In this document: positions 11,954-48,723 of the stretch, piece by piece
Layout of the letters: each line of letters opens with the position of its first letter
Position numbering within the stretch: the first letter of the stretch is position 1
From: Desulfoscipio sp. XC116
GTDB lineage: Bacteria; Bacillota; Desulfotomaculia; Desulfotomaculales; Desulfallaceae
Assembly (NCBI RefSeq): GCF_039851975.1
Contig: NZ_CP156660.1
Span: 4,035,035-4,099,034, forward strand
Reading direction: 5' to 3'
DNA length: 64,000 bases
The notes under the pieces: generated by a model
Told to the model about the DNA's origin: nothing
What the model saw: only the letters and a program-made list of their open reading frames with translations
Database searches by the model: none
Program-made: the position numbers and the translations under genes

Positions 11954-12922
11954 TTATTTAACTGCTCCCCTTACTATGGTCGATGCATCATCCAAGCTAT
12001 TGGCAGTATATATATTGTTAATGATTTCATCCAGTATAACTACGTCATTAATTTTCTTTACCTCTGCTTGCAAGCTAAAGGATGCCTCTGCGAATTTAAT
12101 ATCCAGGTACTTGCAAATTGCATCATGGGCCATTTCCACCTTGCCTTCAGCTTTGCCCTCAGCTTTGCCTTCAGCTTTGCCTTCAGCCTTGCCTTCAGCT
12201 TTTGCCCCAACCACCATTGAGATTTCATCCCTGACAGCTTTTTCTCTGAGTTCGTATAGCCTGCGCTCTTTCTTGTTCTTGAAGAAGATCTGCTCAATGG
12301 TCATAGCTTTGCGAATACCGGGGTTTCCCATAGCGATTGCCTCCATTTCTTCTCCCTGAATGTTATTGAGATAAAGCAACCATTCCTCCAAGCCATTTTG
12401 GGGCTTGCGTTTTACCTTAGCAACCTTCTGCAGCTCCAAGAAATGAATTTCCAGATCGTCGTTCAATAACTCTCCCGTTTGATCCTCCCTGACGTGGAAG
12501 GTGTGGTGGTATTTATATGTATCCTCGAACCAATCAAATCCAAGAATATTTATAGTGATGGTCTTCCTAAGGCAAATGAAATTCTGGCCGCTGGCCAATT
12601 GTCCATGATACAGTCCTGCCCAATAAAACAATGTGCGTTTATCAATGTTGTATCTGTTTACTATCTGGACTTCTACATTCACCAATGCCCCGGTGACTAT
12701 TCTAGCCAAAATGTCAAGTCTGGCGGCTTTGTCCAGTAGGTATTTAGGATCCAATTCCCGATCCAGCAACTCTACTGCAGCCAGTTCCTGTCCCGGCAAT
12801 GGCTTCAACACGGCGTTCAGTAAGCTTATTAATGCTTCTTTGCCCTCTTCCGATCCGAATATCCTTTTGAAGGCATAGTCATTTATACGGTTAATGGCTT
12901 TCATTTCCGACAATAACTTCAC
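11954..12922 (-). CDS. Rpn family recombination-promoting nuclease/putative transposase, copy 1
   Basis: A 322-residue PD-(D/E)XK family protein of the Rpn/PDDEXK_2 type. The N-terminus NDYAFKRIFGSEEGKEAL and the core LDILARIVTGALVNVEVQIV (D...E-x-Q nuclease motif) are typical. Five copies of AEGK follow at about residues 240-260, a usual hydrophilic linker in this family. A mature C-terminal helix region differs from copy 2. Known Rpn proteins are DNA endonucleases that promote recombination. The start is ambiguous: GTG 12922 sits right on a GGGGG, and TTG or ATG a few codons later are alternatives. Confidence 0.82.
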   Translation of the reverse strand: MKLLSEMKAINRINDYAFKRIFGSEEGKEALISLLNAVLKPLPGQELAAVELLDRELDPKYLLDKAARLDILARIVTGALVNVEVQIVNRYNIDKRTLFYWAGLYHGQLASGQNFICLRKTITINILGFDWFEDTYKYHHTFHVREDQTGELLNDDLEIHFLELQKVAKVKRKPQNGLEEWLLYLNNIQGEEMEAIAMGNPGIRKAMTIEQIFFKNKKERRLYELREKAVRDEISMVVGAKAEGKAEGKAEGKAEGKAEGKVEMAHDAICKYLDIKFAEASFSLQAEVKKINDVVILDEIINNIYTANSLDDASTIVRGAVK

Positions 12923-13755: not shown

Positions 13756-14721
13756 TTAACTTCCGGCTTTTGTTGCCCCCCCCAAAATGGCTAATACTTC
13801 ATCGAAACTATTGGCTGCATAAACTTTTGTTATAGTTTCTTCCAATACAACCAAGTCACTGATTTTCTTTACCTCCGCTTGCAGGCTAATAGATGCCCCC
13901 GGGAATTTAATGTCTAGGTATTTACAAATAGCATCATGAGCCATTTCCACTTTACCTTCAGCTTTACCTTCAGCTTTGCCTTCAGCCTTGCCTTCAGCTT
14001 TTGCCCCAACCACCATTGATATTTCATCCCTGACAGCTTTTTCTCTGAGTTCGTATAGCCTGCGCTCTTTCTTGTTCTTGAAGAAGATCTGCTCAATGGT
14101 CATAGCTTTGCGAATACCGGGGTTTCCCATAGCGATTACCTCCATTTCTTCTCCCTGAATGTTATTGAGATAAAGCAACCATTCCTCCAAGCCATTTTGG
14201 GGCTTGCGTTTTACCTTAGCAACCTTCTGCAGCTCCAAGAAATGAATTTCCAGATCGTCGTTCAATAACTCTCCCGTTTGATCCTCCCTGACGTGGAAGG
14301 TGTGGTGGTATTTATATGTATCCTCGAACCAATCAAATCCAAGAATATTTATAGTGATGGTCTTCCTAAGGCAAATGAAATTCTGGCCGCTGGCCAATTG
14401 TCCATGATACAGTCCTGCCCAATAAAACAATGTGCGTTTATCAATGTTGTATCTGTTTACTATCTGGACTTCTACATTCACCAATGCCCCGGTGACTATT
14501 CTAGCCAAAATGTCAAGTCTGGCGGCTTTGTCCAGTAGGTATTTAGGATCCAATTCCCGATCCAGCAACTCTACTGCAGCCAGTTCCTGTCCCGGCAATG
14601 GCTTCAACACGGCGTTCAGTAAGCTTATTAATGCTTCTTTGCCCTCTTCCGATCCGAATATCCTTTTGAAGGCATAGTCATTTATACGGTTAATGGCTTT
14701 CATTTCCGACAATAACTTCAC
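13756..14721 (-). CDS. Rpn family recombination-promoting nuclease/putative transposase, copy 2
   Basis: 321 residues, nearly identical to copy 1 through the PD-(D/E)XK domain (one visible change, EAIAMG to EVIAMG). It has four AEGK units instead of five. After the repeat the two proteins diverge: KFPGASISLQ and a GGATKAGS end here, against KFAEASFSLQ and GAVK in copy 1. The gene looks intact. Its downstream side faces the MarR gene and its upstream side faces a broken tyrosine recombinase. Confidence 0.82.
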   Translation of the reverse strand: MKLLSEMKAINRINDYAFKRIFGSEEGKEALISLLNAVLKPLPGQELAAVELLDRELDPKYLLDKAARLDILARIVTGALVNVEVQIVNRYNIDKRTLFYWAGLYHGQLASGQNFICLRKTITINILGFDWFEDTYKYHHTFHVREDQTGELLNDDLEIHFLELQKVAKVKRKPQNGLEEWLLYLNNIQGEEMEVIAMGNPGIRKAMTIEQIFFKNKKERRLYELREKAVRDEISMVVGAKAEGKAEGKAEGKAEGKVEMAHDAICKYLDIKFPGASISLQAEVKKISDLVVLEETITKVYAANSFDEVLAILGGATKAGS

Positions 14722-29195: not shown

Positions 29196-29229
29196 AAAAG
29201 GCGGTCCTACATTTTTGAGGACCGCCTTG
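29196..29229 (-). terminator. Rho-independent terminator after the TagO-like gene
   Basis: Stem AAGGCGGTCC/GGACCGCCTT with an 11-base loop, followed by TTTTT-like bases on the minus strand, about 55 bases past the stop of the glycosyl-phosphate transferase. Confidence 0.8.
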
Positions 29230-29230
29230 A

Positions 29231-29315
29231 CCGGTGTTCATCAGTTATTCCGTGGACCCCTCGAAGGGGCACGGCACGAGAAATTCAGCGCCGATGTTCG
29301 TCAGTTATTCCACGG
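29231..29315 (-). repeat. Duplicated 3' end of the TagO-like gene
   Basis: Bases 29291-29315 (end of the gene, coding RGITDEHR) recur at 29231-29255, 60 bases further, with four changes in 25. The second copy is in frame with the gene but lies after its TGA. Confidence 0.75.
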
Positions 29316-30358
29316 CCCCACCTGTGGGAAACGCCCAGCACCCCCACGCGATTGGCCAGATAAATAAGCAGAATCGCCAGTACAACCAACATAATCAATG
29401 CCTGATCTCCGCTCACCAGATTCAATACTATAGCGGTTAGTCCCAGAAAGCCGCTGATAGCATATATGACCAGCACTGTCTGTCTGTGACTCAGACCCAT
29501 CGCCATAAGTTGATGGTGCAGGTGCTCACGGTCAGGCTGGAATATGGGACGGTGTTTATTATATCGCCGGATCACCGCAAAGAAAGTATCCAGCAGGGGT
29601 ACCCCCAGTATGACCAGCGGTATAATTACCGAAACTGCGGTAGCACTCTTGGTCAAGCCCATTATGGACATTACCGCCAGGGTAAAACCAAGGAACAGCG
29701 ACCCTGAATCACCCAGAAATATTGTGGCGGGATGAAAATTATGCTTCAAAAAGCCAATTACCGCAGCTGCCAGTATCAGCGCCAGCATAATCACTTCCGG
29801 CAATCCACTGGTGCCTAGTGTCCAGGCCACCGCGGCCATGGTCAGGGCGGCAATACATGACACACCGCCTGCCAGTCCGTCCAAACCGTCAATCAGGTTT
29901 ATCGCGTTAGCAACGGCTACTATCCAAAAAACAGTAAGCGGTATGCTAAGATAACCCAGATATAGCAATTGACCGGTTAGCGGGTTAGTCACATAGTGAA
30001 TTTGGATACCAAATTGTATAACCGTTAGCGCCGCTAAAATCTGCCCCAGCAGTTTGACCCGCGGGGACAGGCCGCGAATGTCGTCCAATACCCCCACCAG
30101 CAGCATTAGCGAAGCTCCGGCAAGTAATCCCCATACCGGCAGCGACGATTCCGGCAGCATGTACCTGAGCAGCAACACCGCGGGGACAAAGGCCAGATAT
30201 ACGGCCAGTCCGCCCATACGGGGCATAACTCCGCTGTGGACTTTGCGAGGATCGGGGTGATCCAGAGCTCCCACCTTGATCGCCAGCACCCGCACACCGG
30301 GGGTAACCAAGTAACCCAGCGCAAGAGCCAGCACCAGGGGCAGCATGTATTTTTCCAC
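29285..30358 (-). CDS. tagO: Undecaprenyl-phosphate N-acetylhexosamine 1-phosphate transferase (TagO/WecA-like)
   Basis: A 357-residue membrane enzyme with about 10-11 helices. Diagnostic motifs: NLIDGLDGLAGG (Mg/substrate-binding aspartates), NFHPATIFLGDSGSLFLGF, and PDREHLHHQLMAMGLSHRQT with the family HLHH loop. It moves GlcNAc 1-phosphate to undecaprenyl phosphate, the first step of teichoic-acid-like or secondary wall polymers. The start is GTG 30358, with GGAGGG 7 nt upstream. The C-terminal tail (GRGITDEHRR) is repeated in frame past the TGA stop. With the TagA-like and CsaB proteins in this window it suggests a pyruvylated wall polymer pathway. Confidence 0.88.
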   Translation of the reverse strand: MEKYMLPLVLALALGYLVTPGVRVLAIKVGALDHPDPRKVHSGVMPRMGGLAVYLAFVPAVLLLRYMLPESSLPVWGLLAGASLMLLVGVLDDIRGLSPRVKLLGQILAALTVIQFGIQIHYVTNPLTGQLLYLGYLSIPLTVFWIVAVANAINLIDGLDGLAGGVSCIAALTMAAVAWTLGTSGLPEVIMLALILAAAVIGFLKHNFHPATIFLGDSGSLFLGFTLAVMSIMGLTKSATAVSVIIPLVILGVPLLDTFFAVIRRYNKHRPIFQPDREHLHHQLMAMGLSHRQTVLVIYAISGFLGLTAIVLNLVSGDQALIMLVVLAILLIYLANRVGVLGVSHRWGRGITDEHRR

Positions 30359-30542: not shown

Positions 30543-30680
30543 TGTTGACTGGTTTTAGGTGTGTTAGCCATTAGCTGTCTAGTTGGTTGACTGGTTTTAG
30601 CTGTGGCAGCCGTTAGCTATCTAGTTGGTTGACTGGTTTTAGCTGTGGCAGCCGTTAGCTATCTAGTTGGTTGACTGGTT
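30543..30680. repeat. Tandem 42-bp repeat array
   Basis: A unit beginning GGTTGACTGGTTTTAGCTGT starts at 30585, 30627 and 30669, exactly 42 bases apart, preceded by a degenerate copy at 30543. The last copy is cut short. It has no coding content and lies between the TagO-like gene and the next array. Confidence 0.9.
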
Positions 30681-30709: not shown

Positions 30710-30886
30710 TGCCGGGTGTTGAAAGTTGAAAATCAAAGATTTTACAACTTTCAACACCCGGCACCCGGCACCAAACTTTCAACACCCGGCACCCGGCACC
30801 AAACTTTCAACACCCGGCACCCGGCACCAAACTTTCAACACCCGGCACCCGGCACCAAACTTTCAACACCCGGCACCCAAACTCAC
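30710..30886. repeat. Hairpin followed by a tandem 28-bp repeat array
   Basis: A GTGCCGGGTGTTGAAAGTTG palindrome (about 30710-30764) leads into five units starting AACTTTCAACACCCGGCACC at 30746, 30774, 30802, 30830 and 30858. The right arm of the hairpin is the first unit, so the array seems to have grown by repeated copying of one hairpin arm. Open frames across it are artefacts. Confidence 0.9.
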
Positions 30887-31702: not shown

Positions 31703-31818
31703 TGTTGAATTTTTTCACAACATATAAATGGGACAGACTCTATTAAACACTAAATATTGACTAATATAACGACTTTGACGATATCGCAGCTATTCCAAGG
31801 CATGAGTCCGCCAAAGGT

Positions 31819-31912
31819 TATACATAGCCTTGATTTTACACCCGGCGGCATGGGCGGCGATCCCGATTATTTAAGAGTCACGGGAGGCTATATACAGCCT
31901 TGATTTTATATA
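31819..31912 (-). repeat. Duplicated sequence spanning the cpsD stop
   Basis: TAAAATCAAGGCTGTATATA at the cpsD stop recurs 70 bases downstream as TAAAATCAAGGCTATGTATA. Unlike the other tail repeats here, the offset is not a multiple of three. Confidence 0.6.
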
Positions 31913-32625
31913 GCGGCCCGGGGTATGCTATTTTTCTTTTCATCCTTGGCGTAATAGTAGTAATAATAGTAATTGCCGCCGTTAACGTCCACCTGGTTTA
32001 AAACAACACCGATAATTTTGGCGTTGGTCCTGTCCAGCAGAGATTTGGTTTCCTGCACCAGTTCTATTTTGGTAGAGGCCGTTTTCACCACCAGCAATAC
32101 CCCGTCAACCATAGTGGATAGCAACGACGCGTCAGTTACCGTCATGACAGGCGGCGAGTCCAGCAAAACAATATCATAAGCATCCCGGGCGGCGGCAATC
32201 AGTGCCGCCATCTTAGTTGTGCCGATTAATTCAGCCGGGTTGGGGGGTATAGGTCCGCAGGTCAATATGTCCAAACCTGCCATTTCCGTGCTCTGAATCG
32301 CCTTATCCAGTTTTAAATCATTAACCAGGCAGTTGGTTACGCCCACAGCATTATCTAAATAAAAGTTTTGATGCTGTACAGGTTTTCTCAGGTCGCAGTC
32401 AATAATCAGCACCTTTTGCCCGGCTTGCGCTATCACGACGCCCAAGTTGGCTGTAGTGCTGGATTTACCCTCCGCAGGGACCGTACTGGTCACCAATATA
32501 GTTTTATAGGGCTTGTCCACTCCCGCAAAGCTTAAGTTGGTACGTAAGGTTCGAAACGCCTCAGCAAACGGTGAATGGGAATCAATACTGCTGAAGACAG
32601 CAGCCCGGCTATGCTTTTCGGACAT
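31906..32625 (-). CDS. CpsD/CapB-type bacterial tyrosine kinase
   Basis: A 239-residue BY-kinase. Walker A is VPAEGKSSTTANLG at about 49-62, Walker A' is LIIDCDLRKP, and Walker B lies at the IVLLDSPPV segment. The C-terminus holds a run of seven tyrosines (GGNYYYYYYY), the autophosphorylation cluster. It works with the membrane co-polymerase encoded just upstream to control polymer export and chain length. Its ATG overlaps the co-polymerase stop by 17 bp. The CpsB-type phosphatase that would reverse its action is two genes upstream. Domain order is the Gram-positive split type. Confidence 0.9.
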   Translation of the reverse strand: MSEKHSRAAVFSSIDSHSPFAEAFRTLRTNLSFAGVDKPYKTILVTSTVPAEGKSSTTANLGVVIAQAGQKVLIIDCDLRKPVQHQNFYLDNAVGVTNCLVNDLKLDKAIQSTEMAGLDILTCGPIPPNPAELIGTTKMAALIAAARDAYDIVLLDSPPVMTVTDASLLSTMVDGVLLVVKTASTKIELVQETKSLLDRTNAKIIGVVLNQVDVNGGNYYYYYYYAKDEKKNSIPRAAI

Positions 32626-33964: not shown

Positions 33965-34104
33965 TACCTCACCACTCCTGTACACTGTACTGCTCATATA
34001 CTCTATAAAAAGTAAAGGTACCCAAGTACCATAACCTGTAATTGGCGCACATTAACGGCCGGAGGCGTCTCTTCCCTCGCCACAGCCCGCTTAAAAAATA
34101 CGGA

Positions 34105-34914
34105 TTACTTACCGGGGAAGGTATCTTTTCTCCGCCACAGCCTGCTCAAAAATCCCAGTTTACCTTGGGGGGGCGGTTTTTCTATAGTAGGCGGGCGAAC
34201 AGGAGAGCGACCCTGCAGCAAGCGGGTCGGGTTGTCCCCGGTTAAAAGTTTCCCAAGACCCGTACTGTAACCTTCCGCCACCCGGCAAGCCTCGGACAGC
34301 ACCGGGGAGCGTCTGTCGGTTCCGTGAGCATCGCTGCTGATAAAATGATAGCAGCCATCCAGCAGATAATCCACAGCCAGCCGGCGCGCCCGGCTGCCGA
34401 ATAAACCGGTGAAACTGCCTGCCGTGCCCTGGCACAATGCGCCTTTTTCAATGAAGGATAACAATTTATCAGGGTCCTCCATAAACTTACTGTTTCGTTC
34501 AGGATGAGCAATAATCGGGGTAACACCCTGCAGGGCTATTTCAAAAAACGTCTGATCGGCATAAATAGGAATTTCCGCGGCAGGAAACTCCACCAGCAGA
34601 TATTTGCCTCCATCATACAGAGTTAACGCCCGACCTTCTTTCAGCCACAACGGTATATCCGGGTCCAGCATATATTCCGCTCCGGGATATACTTCAAGAG
34701 GTATACCTTGGGCTTGCAGTTGACCGCGGAATGTCTGCACCGCATCCAGTATTTTTTCTTTACTGTTGTTATATACGCCGACCATTATATGGGGGGTGGC
34801 CACCACTGCTTTGATCCCGTCCGCAGCCGCACAGCGGGCCATTTCCAGTGATTCCTCCATATCCCGGGAACCGTCGTCTATGCCGGGGAGAATATGTATA
34901 TGCAGATCAATCAC
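34105..34914 (-). CDS. CpsB/CapC-type tyrosine-protein phosphatase (PHP domain)
   Basis: 269 residues opening with MIDLHIHILPGIDDGSRDME, the metal-binding H-x-H of the PHP fold, then VVATPHIMVGVY, PIIAHPERNSKF and FISSDAHGTDRR, which supply further His and Asp metal ligands. It removes phosphate from the kinase tyrosine cluster. The usual length is about 255, so the C-terminal 20 residues (basic and proline-rich) are extra. The start is GTG 34914, overlapping the upstream small membrane protein by 8 bp. Confidence 0.9.
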   Translation of the reverse strand: MIDLHIHILPGIDDGSRDMEESLEMARCAAADGIKAVVATPHIMVGVYNNSKEKILDAVQTFRGQLQAQGIPLEVYPGAEYMLDPDIPLWLKEGRALTLYDGGKYLLVEFPAAEIPIYADQTFFEIALQGVTPIIAHPERNSKFMEDPDKLLSFIEKGALCQGTAGSFTGLFGSRARRLAVDYLLDGCYHFISSDAHGTDRRSPVLSEACRVAEGYSTGLGKLLTGDNPTRLLQGRSPVRPPTIEKPPPQGKLGFLSRLWRRKDTFPGK

Positions 34915-42267: not shown

Positions 42268-42315
42268 CGAAAAAAACAGGACGCAAGTCCCGGCTGGAAA
42301 TTACTTGCGCCCTGC
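42268..42315 (-). terminator. Terminator after the LCP gene
   Basis: GGGCGCAAGT/ACTTGCGTCC stem with a loop of about 16 bases, followed on the minus strand by TTTTTTTCG. It lies about 85 bases past the LCP stop and just past the duplicated tail. Confidence 0.8.
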
Positions 42316-42328
42316 TTATTTTCTCTCA

Positions 42329-42436
42329 TCAGGAATTTATGATTATGTCTACATGTCCGTTTTCAAGCGGGCAAAGAGAATACCAACCCAACTTGGATCA
42401 TGGATTTATGATTATGTCTACGTGTCCGCTTTCAAC
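42329..42436 (-). repeat. Duplicated 3' end of the LCP gene
   Basis: The last coding bases (ESGHVDIIINP then TGA at 42398-42400) recur 69 bases further as ENGHVDIIINS followed by TGA at 42329-42331. The second copy is in frame with the first. Confidence 0.85.
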
Positions 42437-43690
42437 GGGTTCCCCCTGTTTACCCTCATCGGGTGCAGTCGAGGTGGAGGTATGGGGCGATGTATTACCC
42501 GGCTGCTGCTGCTCCCCACTTATATTGCCGCTGTCGCCACCGGCATTATCTTCACCGCCGGCAATGGATTCATCAACATCTGTCTCAGCAGTACCGGTAT
42601 TGTCGGCAGGATCAGTACTCTTGGCGGCATCATCGGCATCATTTGCATCAGCGTCCGCGTCCGAAGCCTTCCTCTGCTCCTGCCCTGTGGACCGGTTCGA
42701 CTCCATAGCCACTTGTTTGGGCGTATCGTTTGAAATTGCCCCCTGCACTACCTCAACGACCTTACCTTCTTCAAACAAAGCCGTGGCAACCTCTCTGGCT
42801 TTTTCAGGGTCCACATACCAATAGCTGGCCCCATCATCCAAAAACCAGCCCGGCATCGTTTGCGTTACTATTTGCACGTTATCGAGATTTCTAGCCGCCT
42901 TAGCCAGCGCCGCCATTTCCGCCGGCTTCAAATTGGTTTTTACGTTTTTATATATTTGCGGAACAAGCTTGTGCAGCTTGGTAATGGTACCTATTTGCAT
43001 CGTTTCATTACCAATGGCTGTCAATAATTTAAGCTGGCGCTGGGTACGGGTGATATCTCCCAGTCCATCGTGGCGGAAACGGACGTACTGCAATGCTTTA
43101 TCCCCATCCAGCTCCTGAACGCCTTCTTTTAAATGAATACTATAAGCACCGCCGTAAGCCTTTTCATCGTAATTCAAGTCGTCTTCGACATCAACCGTAA
43201 CCCCGCCCAGAGCGTCCACGATATCCTTAAATCCGCCAAAATTAGTTAGCACATAGTAATCCACTGCAACGCCGGTAAGCTCGGACACCTTTTCCATGGC
43301 CAGTTCGGGACCGCCGTAGACGTTAGCCGCATTGATTTTATTCACCCCGTGACCCGGAAGATTCACTTTAGTATCGCGCGGTATGGAAAGCAGCGCCACA
43401 CGGTTATCCTTGTTATTGATATTGGCCAAAATCATGGTATCGGTACGCAGACTGGTTTCATCGCTGCGTTCATCGACCCCCATCATCAGCACATTAATGC
43501 CGGGCATTTTGGCAAACTTATCCGCTTCGTCATCAGTGGGATCAAGATCAACCAGAGGCTCACCGGCAATCAAAGGCCACAAAAAATTATTGGCCGCCGC
43601 AAAACCACCGGCGAACAGGCCGACCAGAATAAGCGAAAACATAAAAAGACGCAGTTTGCTTTTTAACTTTCTTTTTCTTTTCACGGACAT
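42398..43690 (-). CDS. LytR-CpsA-Psr (LCP) family wall-polymer ligase
   Basis: 430 residues. A basic cytoplasmic N-terminus and one membrane helix (LFMFSLILVGLFAGGFAA) are followed by the LCP domain: INVLMMGVDERSDETSLRTD, TMILANINN, LLSIPRDTKVNLPGHGVNKI, YVLTNFGGFKDIVDALGGV, and QYVRFRHDGLGDITRTQRQ. These hold the conserved Arg and Asp residues that bind polyprenyl pyrophosphate. It moves finished wall polymer from lipid carrier to peptidoglycan. The C-terminal 90 residues are disordered, acidic and rich in Asp/Ala, ending GHVDIIINP. The tail is duplicated past the stop. Confidence 0.9.
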   Translation of the reverse strand: MSVKRKRKLKSKLRLFMFSLILVGLFAGGFAAANNFLWPLIAGEPLVDLDPTDDEADKFAKMPGINVLMMGVDERSDETSLRTDTMILANINNKDNRVALLSIPRDTKVNLPGHGVNKINAANVYGGPELAMEKVSELTGVAVDYYVLTNFGGFKDIVDALGGVTVDVEDDLNYDEKAYGGAYSIHLKEGVQELDGDKALQYVRFRHDGLGDITRTQRQLKLLTAIGNETMQIGTITKLHKLVPQIYKNVKTNLKPAEMAALAKAARNLDNVQIVTQTMPGWFLDDGASYWYVDPEKAREVATALFEEGKVVEVVQGAISNDTPKQVAMESNRSTGQEQRKASDADADANDADDAAKSTDPADNTGTAETDVDESIAGGEDNAGGDSGNISGEQQQPGNTSPHTSTSTAPDEGKQGEPVESGHVDIIINP

Positions 43691-48505: not shown

Positions 48506-48529
48506 CACCTTTCCCAGTGCCATGCTTAT

Positions 48530-48655
48530 TGGCACTGGGCGCTTACTGCATTTGGCGCTATCGGCACTTGGCGCTTATAGCGCTTGGCATGTGTCGGCAT
48601 TCGGCGCTATTTGCGTTTGGCGGTCATTGGCACTTGACACATACCGGCGTTTAAC
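48530..48655. repeat. Degenerate short repeats (GGCACTTGGCGCT type)
   Basis: About eight degenerate variants of TTGGCGCT/TTGGCACT follow one another between DUF5693 and the FAD oxidoreductase. No coding frame is plausible. Confidence 0.5.
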
Positions 48656-48660
48656 GTCTA

Positions 48661-48723
48661 ATATCCCTTATCCCGCAGCATATCCGCCTACTGCGGGATA
48701 TCCGCTTCTTGCAGCATATCCAC
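48661..48723 (-). repeat. Tandem 18-bp repeats crossing the FAD oxidoreductase stop
   Basis: Units at 48706-48723, 48688-48705 and 48670-48687 share GxGGATATxCxGC. The stop TAG ends the middle unit, and the third unit continues in frame (ADMLRDKGY) to another stop. Confidence 0.75.

Follow-up and report, generated by a model that had tools for sequence, protein, structure and literature searches.

Short spaced repeats at gene ends of Desulfoscipio sp. XC116 as possible scars of small insertions with target duplication

Short tandem duplications that arise by replication slippage leave close direct repeats in bacterial genomes. A different route to a duplicated sequence, the non-canonical (off-array) integration of spacers by Cas1–Cas2, has reportedly been described in a 2018 study by Nivala, Shipman and Church. 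In a 64,000-nucleotide stretch of the Desulfoscipio sp. XC116 genome (the window), several gene ends occur twice around a short intervening sequence, and these sites can be compared with both processes. Like slippage duplications, they consist of direct repeats lying close by, with decaying copies and local hot spots; unlike them, the stretch between the copies at a gene of the LytR–CpsA–Psr (LCP) family copies neither flank. Like off-array integration, they appear to combine an inserted short piece of spacer size with a duplicated target, in a genome with two cas1 genes, one for a type I-C Cas1 and one for a second Cas1, and the inserts at four sites measure 34, 37, 37 and 38 nt. By contrast with such integration, the duplications measure 19–39 nt instead of 30 or 32 nt, they bear no likeness to the array repeats, and they are placed at gene ends and clustered. 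No account of this gene-end pattern was found in the portions of the literature that our search covered.

Gene-end repeats in the polysaccharide cluster

The LCP gene (42398–43690, minus strand; Pfam PF03816, E 8.5e-46) encodes a protein of 430 amino acids whose translated C terminus reads ESGHVDIIINP. The true 3′ end of the gene forms copy 1 of a direct repeat (R; 42397–42435, minus strand; direct repeat D6, also recovered by the gene-end scans). It is followed by an intervening stretch, S, of 30 nt (42367–42396, minus strand; 37 nt for a duplicated target of just 32 nt) and by copy 2 (R′; 42328–42366, minus strand), 3′ of which lies the core of a terminator-like hairpin (42277–42292, minus strand). 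Past the TGA of the gene, the frame continues with SKLGWYSLCPL (11 codons), ENGHVDIIINS and a further TGA. As an earlier note on this DNA had claimed, the second copy of the gene end is in frame: the repeat spans 39 nt, 35 of them identical, its copies lie 69 nt (23 codons) apart, and a silent CAC/CAT change separates them. With a score of 29.8 it outranks every other gene end in the first 864 kb scanned, which hold 683 predicted genes. The best of 5,055 Markov-resampled gene-end windows reached 14.4, and chance was therefore rejected as the origin of the LCP repeat.

The sequence of S was compared with its surroundings. In register with its own flanks, it matches at 6 of 30 and 5 of 30 positions, which is chance level, and a gapped alignment to these flanks was no better than shuffles. 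Nor did gapped alignment give a significant match to the flanks of two relatives, G003 and G004. A whole-genome search found no other place for S within 3 mismatches. When the reverse complement of S was compared with the flanks, nothing was found, and template switching via the opposite strand was rejected for this reason.

The LCP protein was matched in 58 of the 59 relatives searched, and the best 19 relative loci were cut out and read at the gene end. A comparable repeat was present in none of the 19. One of these LCP loci (L016) holds an 18-nt repeat with a spacing of 35, which by eye is a member of a dispersed family, and in G004 (locus L003) a hairpin that resembles, by eye, the one found here follows the LCP stop codon.

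The polarity of the duplication can be read at a WecA-like glycosyltransferase (family 4) gene (29285–30358, minus strand; PF00953), the present C terminus of which is translated as GITDEHRR. On the same strand, copy 1 of the gene end (29291–29319; direct repeat D8) is followed by a 31-nt S that holds a new TGA stop (29260–29290) and by copy 2 (29231–29259). The latter runs on into the ancestral end, a remnant that reads SRRSSKM and a stop and overlaps the terminator (29207–29230, minus strand). The repeat covers 29 nt, of which 24 are identical, with a spacing of 60 that keeps it in frame. The genes of the closest relatives still end in RRSSKM, and the nearest WecA-like gene (G006, 86% identical) has the order upstream part, R, RRSSKM, stop and terminator; here RRSSKM, the stop and the terminator come after copy 2, not copy 1. 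This order indicates an addition of about 60 nt ahead of the old end of the gene. The comparison shows copy 2 to be the old gene end, and the gene now stops at the TGA in the added part. Against the upstream flank of relatives, the WecA-like S gave P values of 0.08 (G006) and 0.92 (G001). Across 36 WecA-family loci, which include at least three genes twice, no comparable gene-end repeat was seen; besides the repeat described here, a score above 13 was reached solely by one AT-rich repeat with a spacing of 24, present in both L105 and L026.

Two further genes of the cluster carry end repeats. At a tyrosine-kinase-like gene (31906–32625, minus strand; CpsD-type by its neighbours and an AAA domain), copy 1 (31885–31908) starts at the stop codon and copy 2 (31815–31838) follows at a spacing of 70, out of frame (both minus strand; direct repeat D11); 21 of the 24 nt are identical. 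Comparison of this S with the flanks of three relatives gave P values of 0.11 to 0.52. The repeat is present in none of the 10 relative loci with a usable match to the kinase gene end, 5 more loci were without a match, and the gene itself has no match in G006. At a CpsB/CapC-like gene (34105–34914, minus strand; PF19567), the copies (34133–34177 and 34078–34122, minus strand; direct repeat D5) are 45 nt long and 71% identical, with a spacing of 55, out of frame. Here S resembles the flank (P about 0.01, gapped alignment), and because of this the repeat looks like, and is likely to be, a plain tandem duplication.

The earlier note had listed the pattern at 29231, 31819 and 48661 besides the LCP gene. 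The in-frame repeat at 29231 stands. That at 31819 is a DNA repeat, but its copies are not in frame, and the site at 48661 was rejected as a true repeat: its best ungapped score, 11.0, is at chance level, with 26 of 1,031 gene ends reaching 11. The CpsB/CapC-like site (34078–34177, spacing 55), a fifth one, was missing from that list. The statement that the pattern is unlikely to be chance holds for the LCP repeat and for the group of four repeats within 13 kb, not for the four sites listed. All four genes belong to one polysaccharide cluster. In simulations, clustering of four of six gene-end cases in 13 kb had a probability of about 2e-5, a value that is flattering, as the window was picked on account of these cases.

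Other features of the window were recorded alongside the repeats. Minisatellite-like arrays lie near genes of the polysaccharide cluster at 30544–30680 (42 nt × 3.3) and 30746–30878 (28 nt × 4.8), and a third, also near genes of this cluster, at 48527–48636 (about 33 nt × 3.4). The neighbouring frames 11954–12922 and 13756–14721 are of like length, each with 12-nt repeats (D1). An Rfam search over 28000–49500 gave no match at gathering scores. Between 29285 and 43690, the best relatives differ from gene to gene, as if the cluster were a mosaic.

Recurrence in the genome and in relatives

Unique two-copy spaced noncoding repeats were collected at a score of at least 15, a spacing of 20–500 and copies separated by 10 nt or more, excluding pairs with both copies in predicted genes; the seed of 9 exact letters misses two cases in G001. 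From 935 raw repeats in this genome and relatives, those present in more than 2 places in the sample or composed to more than 60% of one base were dropped, which left 33. Of these, 21 are from this genome, where 2.164 of 4.261 Mb were covered, array regions included. Nine of the 21 have spacings of 54–70, with R of 19–39 nt and S of 27–46 nt, and the spacings of the remaining 12 are spread from 82 to 478, tRNA-like pairs among them. The near-constant spacing across the scanned half of the genome is suggestive of a size class, one that was noticed first and counted afterwards.

Members of this class were then counted at genes, defined as simple open frames of at least 100 codons that were picked greedily. 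In 2.064 Mb, they occur at 6 of 1,685 gene ends versus 0 of 1,685 gene starts (Fisher P 0.03), and at 0 of 5,055 Markov-resampled windows. When all spacings from 24 to 140 were counted, the figures were 10 of 1,685 ends and 3 of 1,685 starts (P 0.09). An earlier count over 1.264 Mb at a score of at least 15 had given 9 of 1,031 ends, 1 of 1,031 starts, 2 of 740 gene-internal windows and 0 of 1,031 shuffles. In 0.4 Mb of G006, repeats were found at 6 of 317 ends (one convergent gene pair being counted twice), 0 of 317 starts, 1 of 218 gene-internal windows and 0 of 317 shuffles. In the comparisons that the earlier note had suggested, the frequency of repeats at gene ends exceeds that in shuffled controls, and the relatives read have single ends, with no comparable second copy at the LCP, WecA-like and kinase genes.

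A seventh gene-end case is found where a frame of 51 codons ends. This site, near 707.6 kb, has identical 36-nt copies around a 34-nt S, and its frame, which is without a family match, may be no gene. The seven gene-end spacings are 69, 60, 70, 55, 66, 54 and 70; four of the seven are multiples of three, an excess over one third that is not significant. One class member in segment H is intergenic with an R of 19 nt and might represent paired operator sites, and one in segment B overlaps just a 62-codon frame.

Two repeats of other kinds were noted. Units of 38–42 nt that share the core TCATGGCTATGAATA form a dispersed noncoding family, with members near 10221 in L119, near 12063 in L124 and at further places in segments B and C. 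A 569-codon frame near 3,701,900 (segment A, 66844) is followed by 14-nt tandem repeats that are perfect and contain TAACTGA; TAACTGA direct repeats have been described in Beggiatoaceae (PMC4679880).

In relatives, we searched 21 WecA-region loci (378,697 bases), among which L022–L031 represent the closer relatives, and found no gene-end repeats with a spacing of 50–72 and a score of at least 15. A hot spot common to the polysaccharide clusters of relatives was rejected on the basis of these 21 loci. Two lesser hits were noted there, an intergenic one in L034 (spacing 64), the sequence of which recurs within that locus, and a weak one in L026 (spacing 65, score 13.1). The presence of cas1 was also compared with that of repeats, in samples too small to carry weight. 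Both cas1 and similar repeats were seen in G001 and G006, and cas1 is absent from G003; G002 and G004 have cas1, yet no repeats at a score of at least 15 in the 31 and 60 kb that represent them.

Sources of the inserts and the CRISPR systems

One S has a source that was found. Downstream of a prepilin peptidase gene (PF01478; near 2,192,500), copies of 29 nt with a spacing of 66 enclose a 37-nt S (L124 12506–12542, near 2,192,520). These 37 nt are antisense to the start-codon region of ku (TIGR02772; near 1,423,409, L177 3406–4224), and with the letters set side by side they are a copy of its first codons at 34 of 37 positions (31/32 by BLAST and 31/33 by pattern search). The match covers all 37 nt and ends at both R borders; judged by this match, the insert is a piece of DNA captured from the distant ku locus. 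By eye, its junctions are without microhomology. The motif TTC, which we take to be the expected protospacer motif, is absent beside the ku source. No genomic source within 3 mismatches was found for the 24-nt core of the WecA-like insert or for the insert at 707.6 kb. Exact 22-nt pieces of three inserts were not found in viral contigs, and one insert had no match in phages or plasmids; the remaining inserts were compared with the sampled sequence only.

The genome holds a type I-C array at 719–729 kb with 158 core repeats and a full repeat of 32 nt, beside which genes for Cas1c, Cas5c, Cas8c, Cas7 and Cas3 lie at 710–718 kb. A second CRISPR system comprises two arrays with 26 core repeats and a repeat of 30 nt, and is classed as type I solely by its repeat and its genes for a Cas3-like protein and Cas1. 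Array periods are mostly 65–69, and spacers, taken as period minus repeat length, are 33–40 nt. Among the inserts of the nine class sites, those of 34, 37, 37 and 38 nt fit this range and those of 27, 31 and 46 nt do not; the LCP insert is 30 and up to 37 nt long, depending on where R ends, and the stretch at 34105, which is tandem-like, has 35 nt. The duplicated targets do not have the length of the repeats (30 or 32 nt): R varies from 19 to 39 nt, and in the identical pair at 707.6 kb it is 36 nt. We compared 11 R sequences (8 from this genome, 1 from G006 and 2 from G001) with both array repeats on both strands. One of the 44 comparisons, at a G001 site, gave P below 0.05, and the R sequences of this genome bear no resemblance to either array repeat.

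Weighing insertion against other origins

The R–S–R anatomy, the polarity of the WecA-like site and the lack of likeness between the LCP S and its flanks are direct observations. Some 69 bases, made up of a repeated gene end and a short unrelated insert, have been added at the LCP gene, and the gene end is present twice as a result. We put the chances at roughly even that a single small insertion with target duplication, a capture of short DNA, left the second LCP copy behind as its relic. From the anatomy we infer a staggered cut at the gene end, into which a short unrelated piece S (about 30–37 nt at the LCP gene) would have been put; gap filling would then leave the target R (32–39 nt) on both sides, as R–S–R. 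Translation would end at or just past copy 1, and copy 2 would be left untranslated before the terminator. An insertion scar is the best reading at the LCP and WecA-like genes and possibly applies at the kinase gene too.

A real, if lesser, possibility is that a unit of about 55–70 nt was duplicated in plain tandem by slippage near the terminator hairpin and that S decayed fast. The CpsB/CapC-like site fits this origin with its S resembling the flank, as do the minisatellites in the same stretch, the clustering of four gene-end cases in 13 kb and the P value of 0.08 for the WecA-like S against the G006 flank. However, if a 60–70-nt unit had been doubled outright, S should be roughly as similar to a flank as one copy is to the other. 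The LCP S does not: R keeps 35 of 39 positions but S just 6 and 5 of 30, it is unlike the flanks of G003 and G004, and one S elsewhere stems from a distant gene, ku. The earlier note's suggestion of slippage duplication is thus upheld as regards duplication at gene ends, given the single ends of relatives, but not as plain slippage at the LCP gene; plain slippage is likely at 34105 and possible at the WecA-like gene. Gene replacement, in which the body of the gene would come from another strain with 30 nt of its flank (S) and be joined to the native last codons, is very unlikely. It would account for the differences of 10–17% between R and R′ at the LCP, WecA-like and kinase genes, some of them silent, and for best relatives that vary by gene as in a mosaic cluster (G004/G003 for LCP, G006/G001 for the WecA-like gene and G003/G004/G001 for the kinase), but BLAST of S against the sampled loci revealed no relative with a gene end followed by S, and the identical arrangement would have to have arisen repeatedly.

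The other suggestion of the earlier note was occasional stop readthrough. That it would extend the LCP protein by a second C-terminal motif under selection we consider barely plausible, and we rejected it. The LCP frame does stay open for 11 codons to ENGHVDIIINS, a motif HVx(I/V)II stands close to the LCP C terminus in 11 of 14 family-level relatives, and by eye the WecA-like gene and a gene near 2,342,100, which we take to be GGDEF-like, also run in frame from the TGA into the second copy. Yet a comparable second copy occurs in 0 of 19 LCP relatives. Of the other three true repeats in the window, two (spacings 70 and 55) lie out of frame; chance often leaves 10 codons open; and at the WecA-like gene it is copy 2 that represents the old gene end. 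The silent change that the earlier note took as a hint of coding selection on both copies is one of a few differences over a short length. Sequencing error was judged unlikely; one continuous frame through the two copies at the LCP gene is absent from the relatives examined.

If the repeats are insertion scars, Cas1–Cas2 acting off its arrays is the most suggestive agent, a candidate that we hold tentatively and regard overall as doubtful. It is proposed because a number of inserts match the spacers in size and a number of spacings coincide with the array period. Off-target integration does not predict the clustering of four of six gene-end cases within 13 kb, and only the ku-derived S has a known source, with R varying in length. 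The more specific proposal that the gene-end R–S–R scars are fossils of off-array CRISPR adaptation, which prefers or is tolerated at gene ends beside terminator hairpins, is a little more speculative still. Next after Cas1–Cas2 as an agent ranks end-joining capture, in which a break with long overhangs would be repaired with a loose short fragment and the overhangs filled. The genome encodes Ku, the ku-derived insert has junctions without microhomology by eye, and the lengths of R and S vary, all of which this repair would accommodate; it gives no reason for spacings confined to 54–70, and we judge it improbable.

If these repeats are relics of slippage, such scars would be ordinary. If they are true insertion scars, ectopic short pieces of DNA enter gene ends with duplication of the target and alter the C termini of proteins. 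A fixed size class would make it testable whether CRISPR adaptation marks natural genomes in this way and, if the off-array reading is true, CRISPR adaptation would quietly alter both C termini and the 3′ regions of genes.
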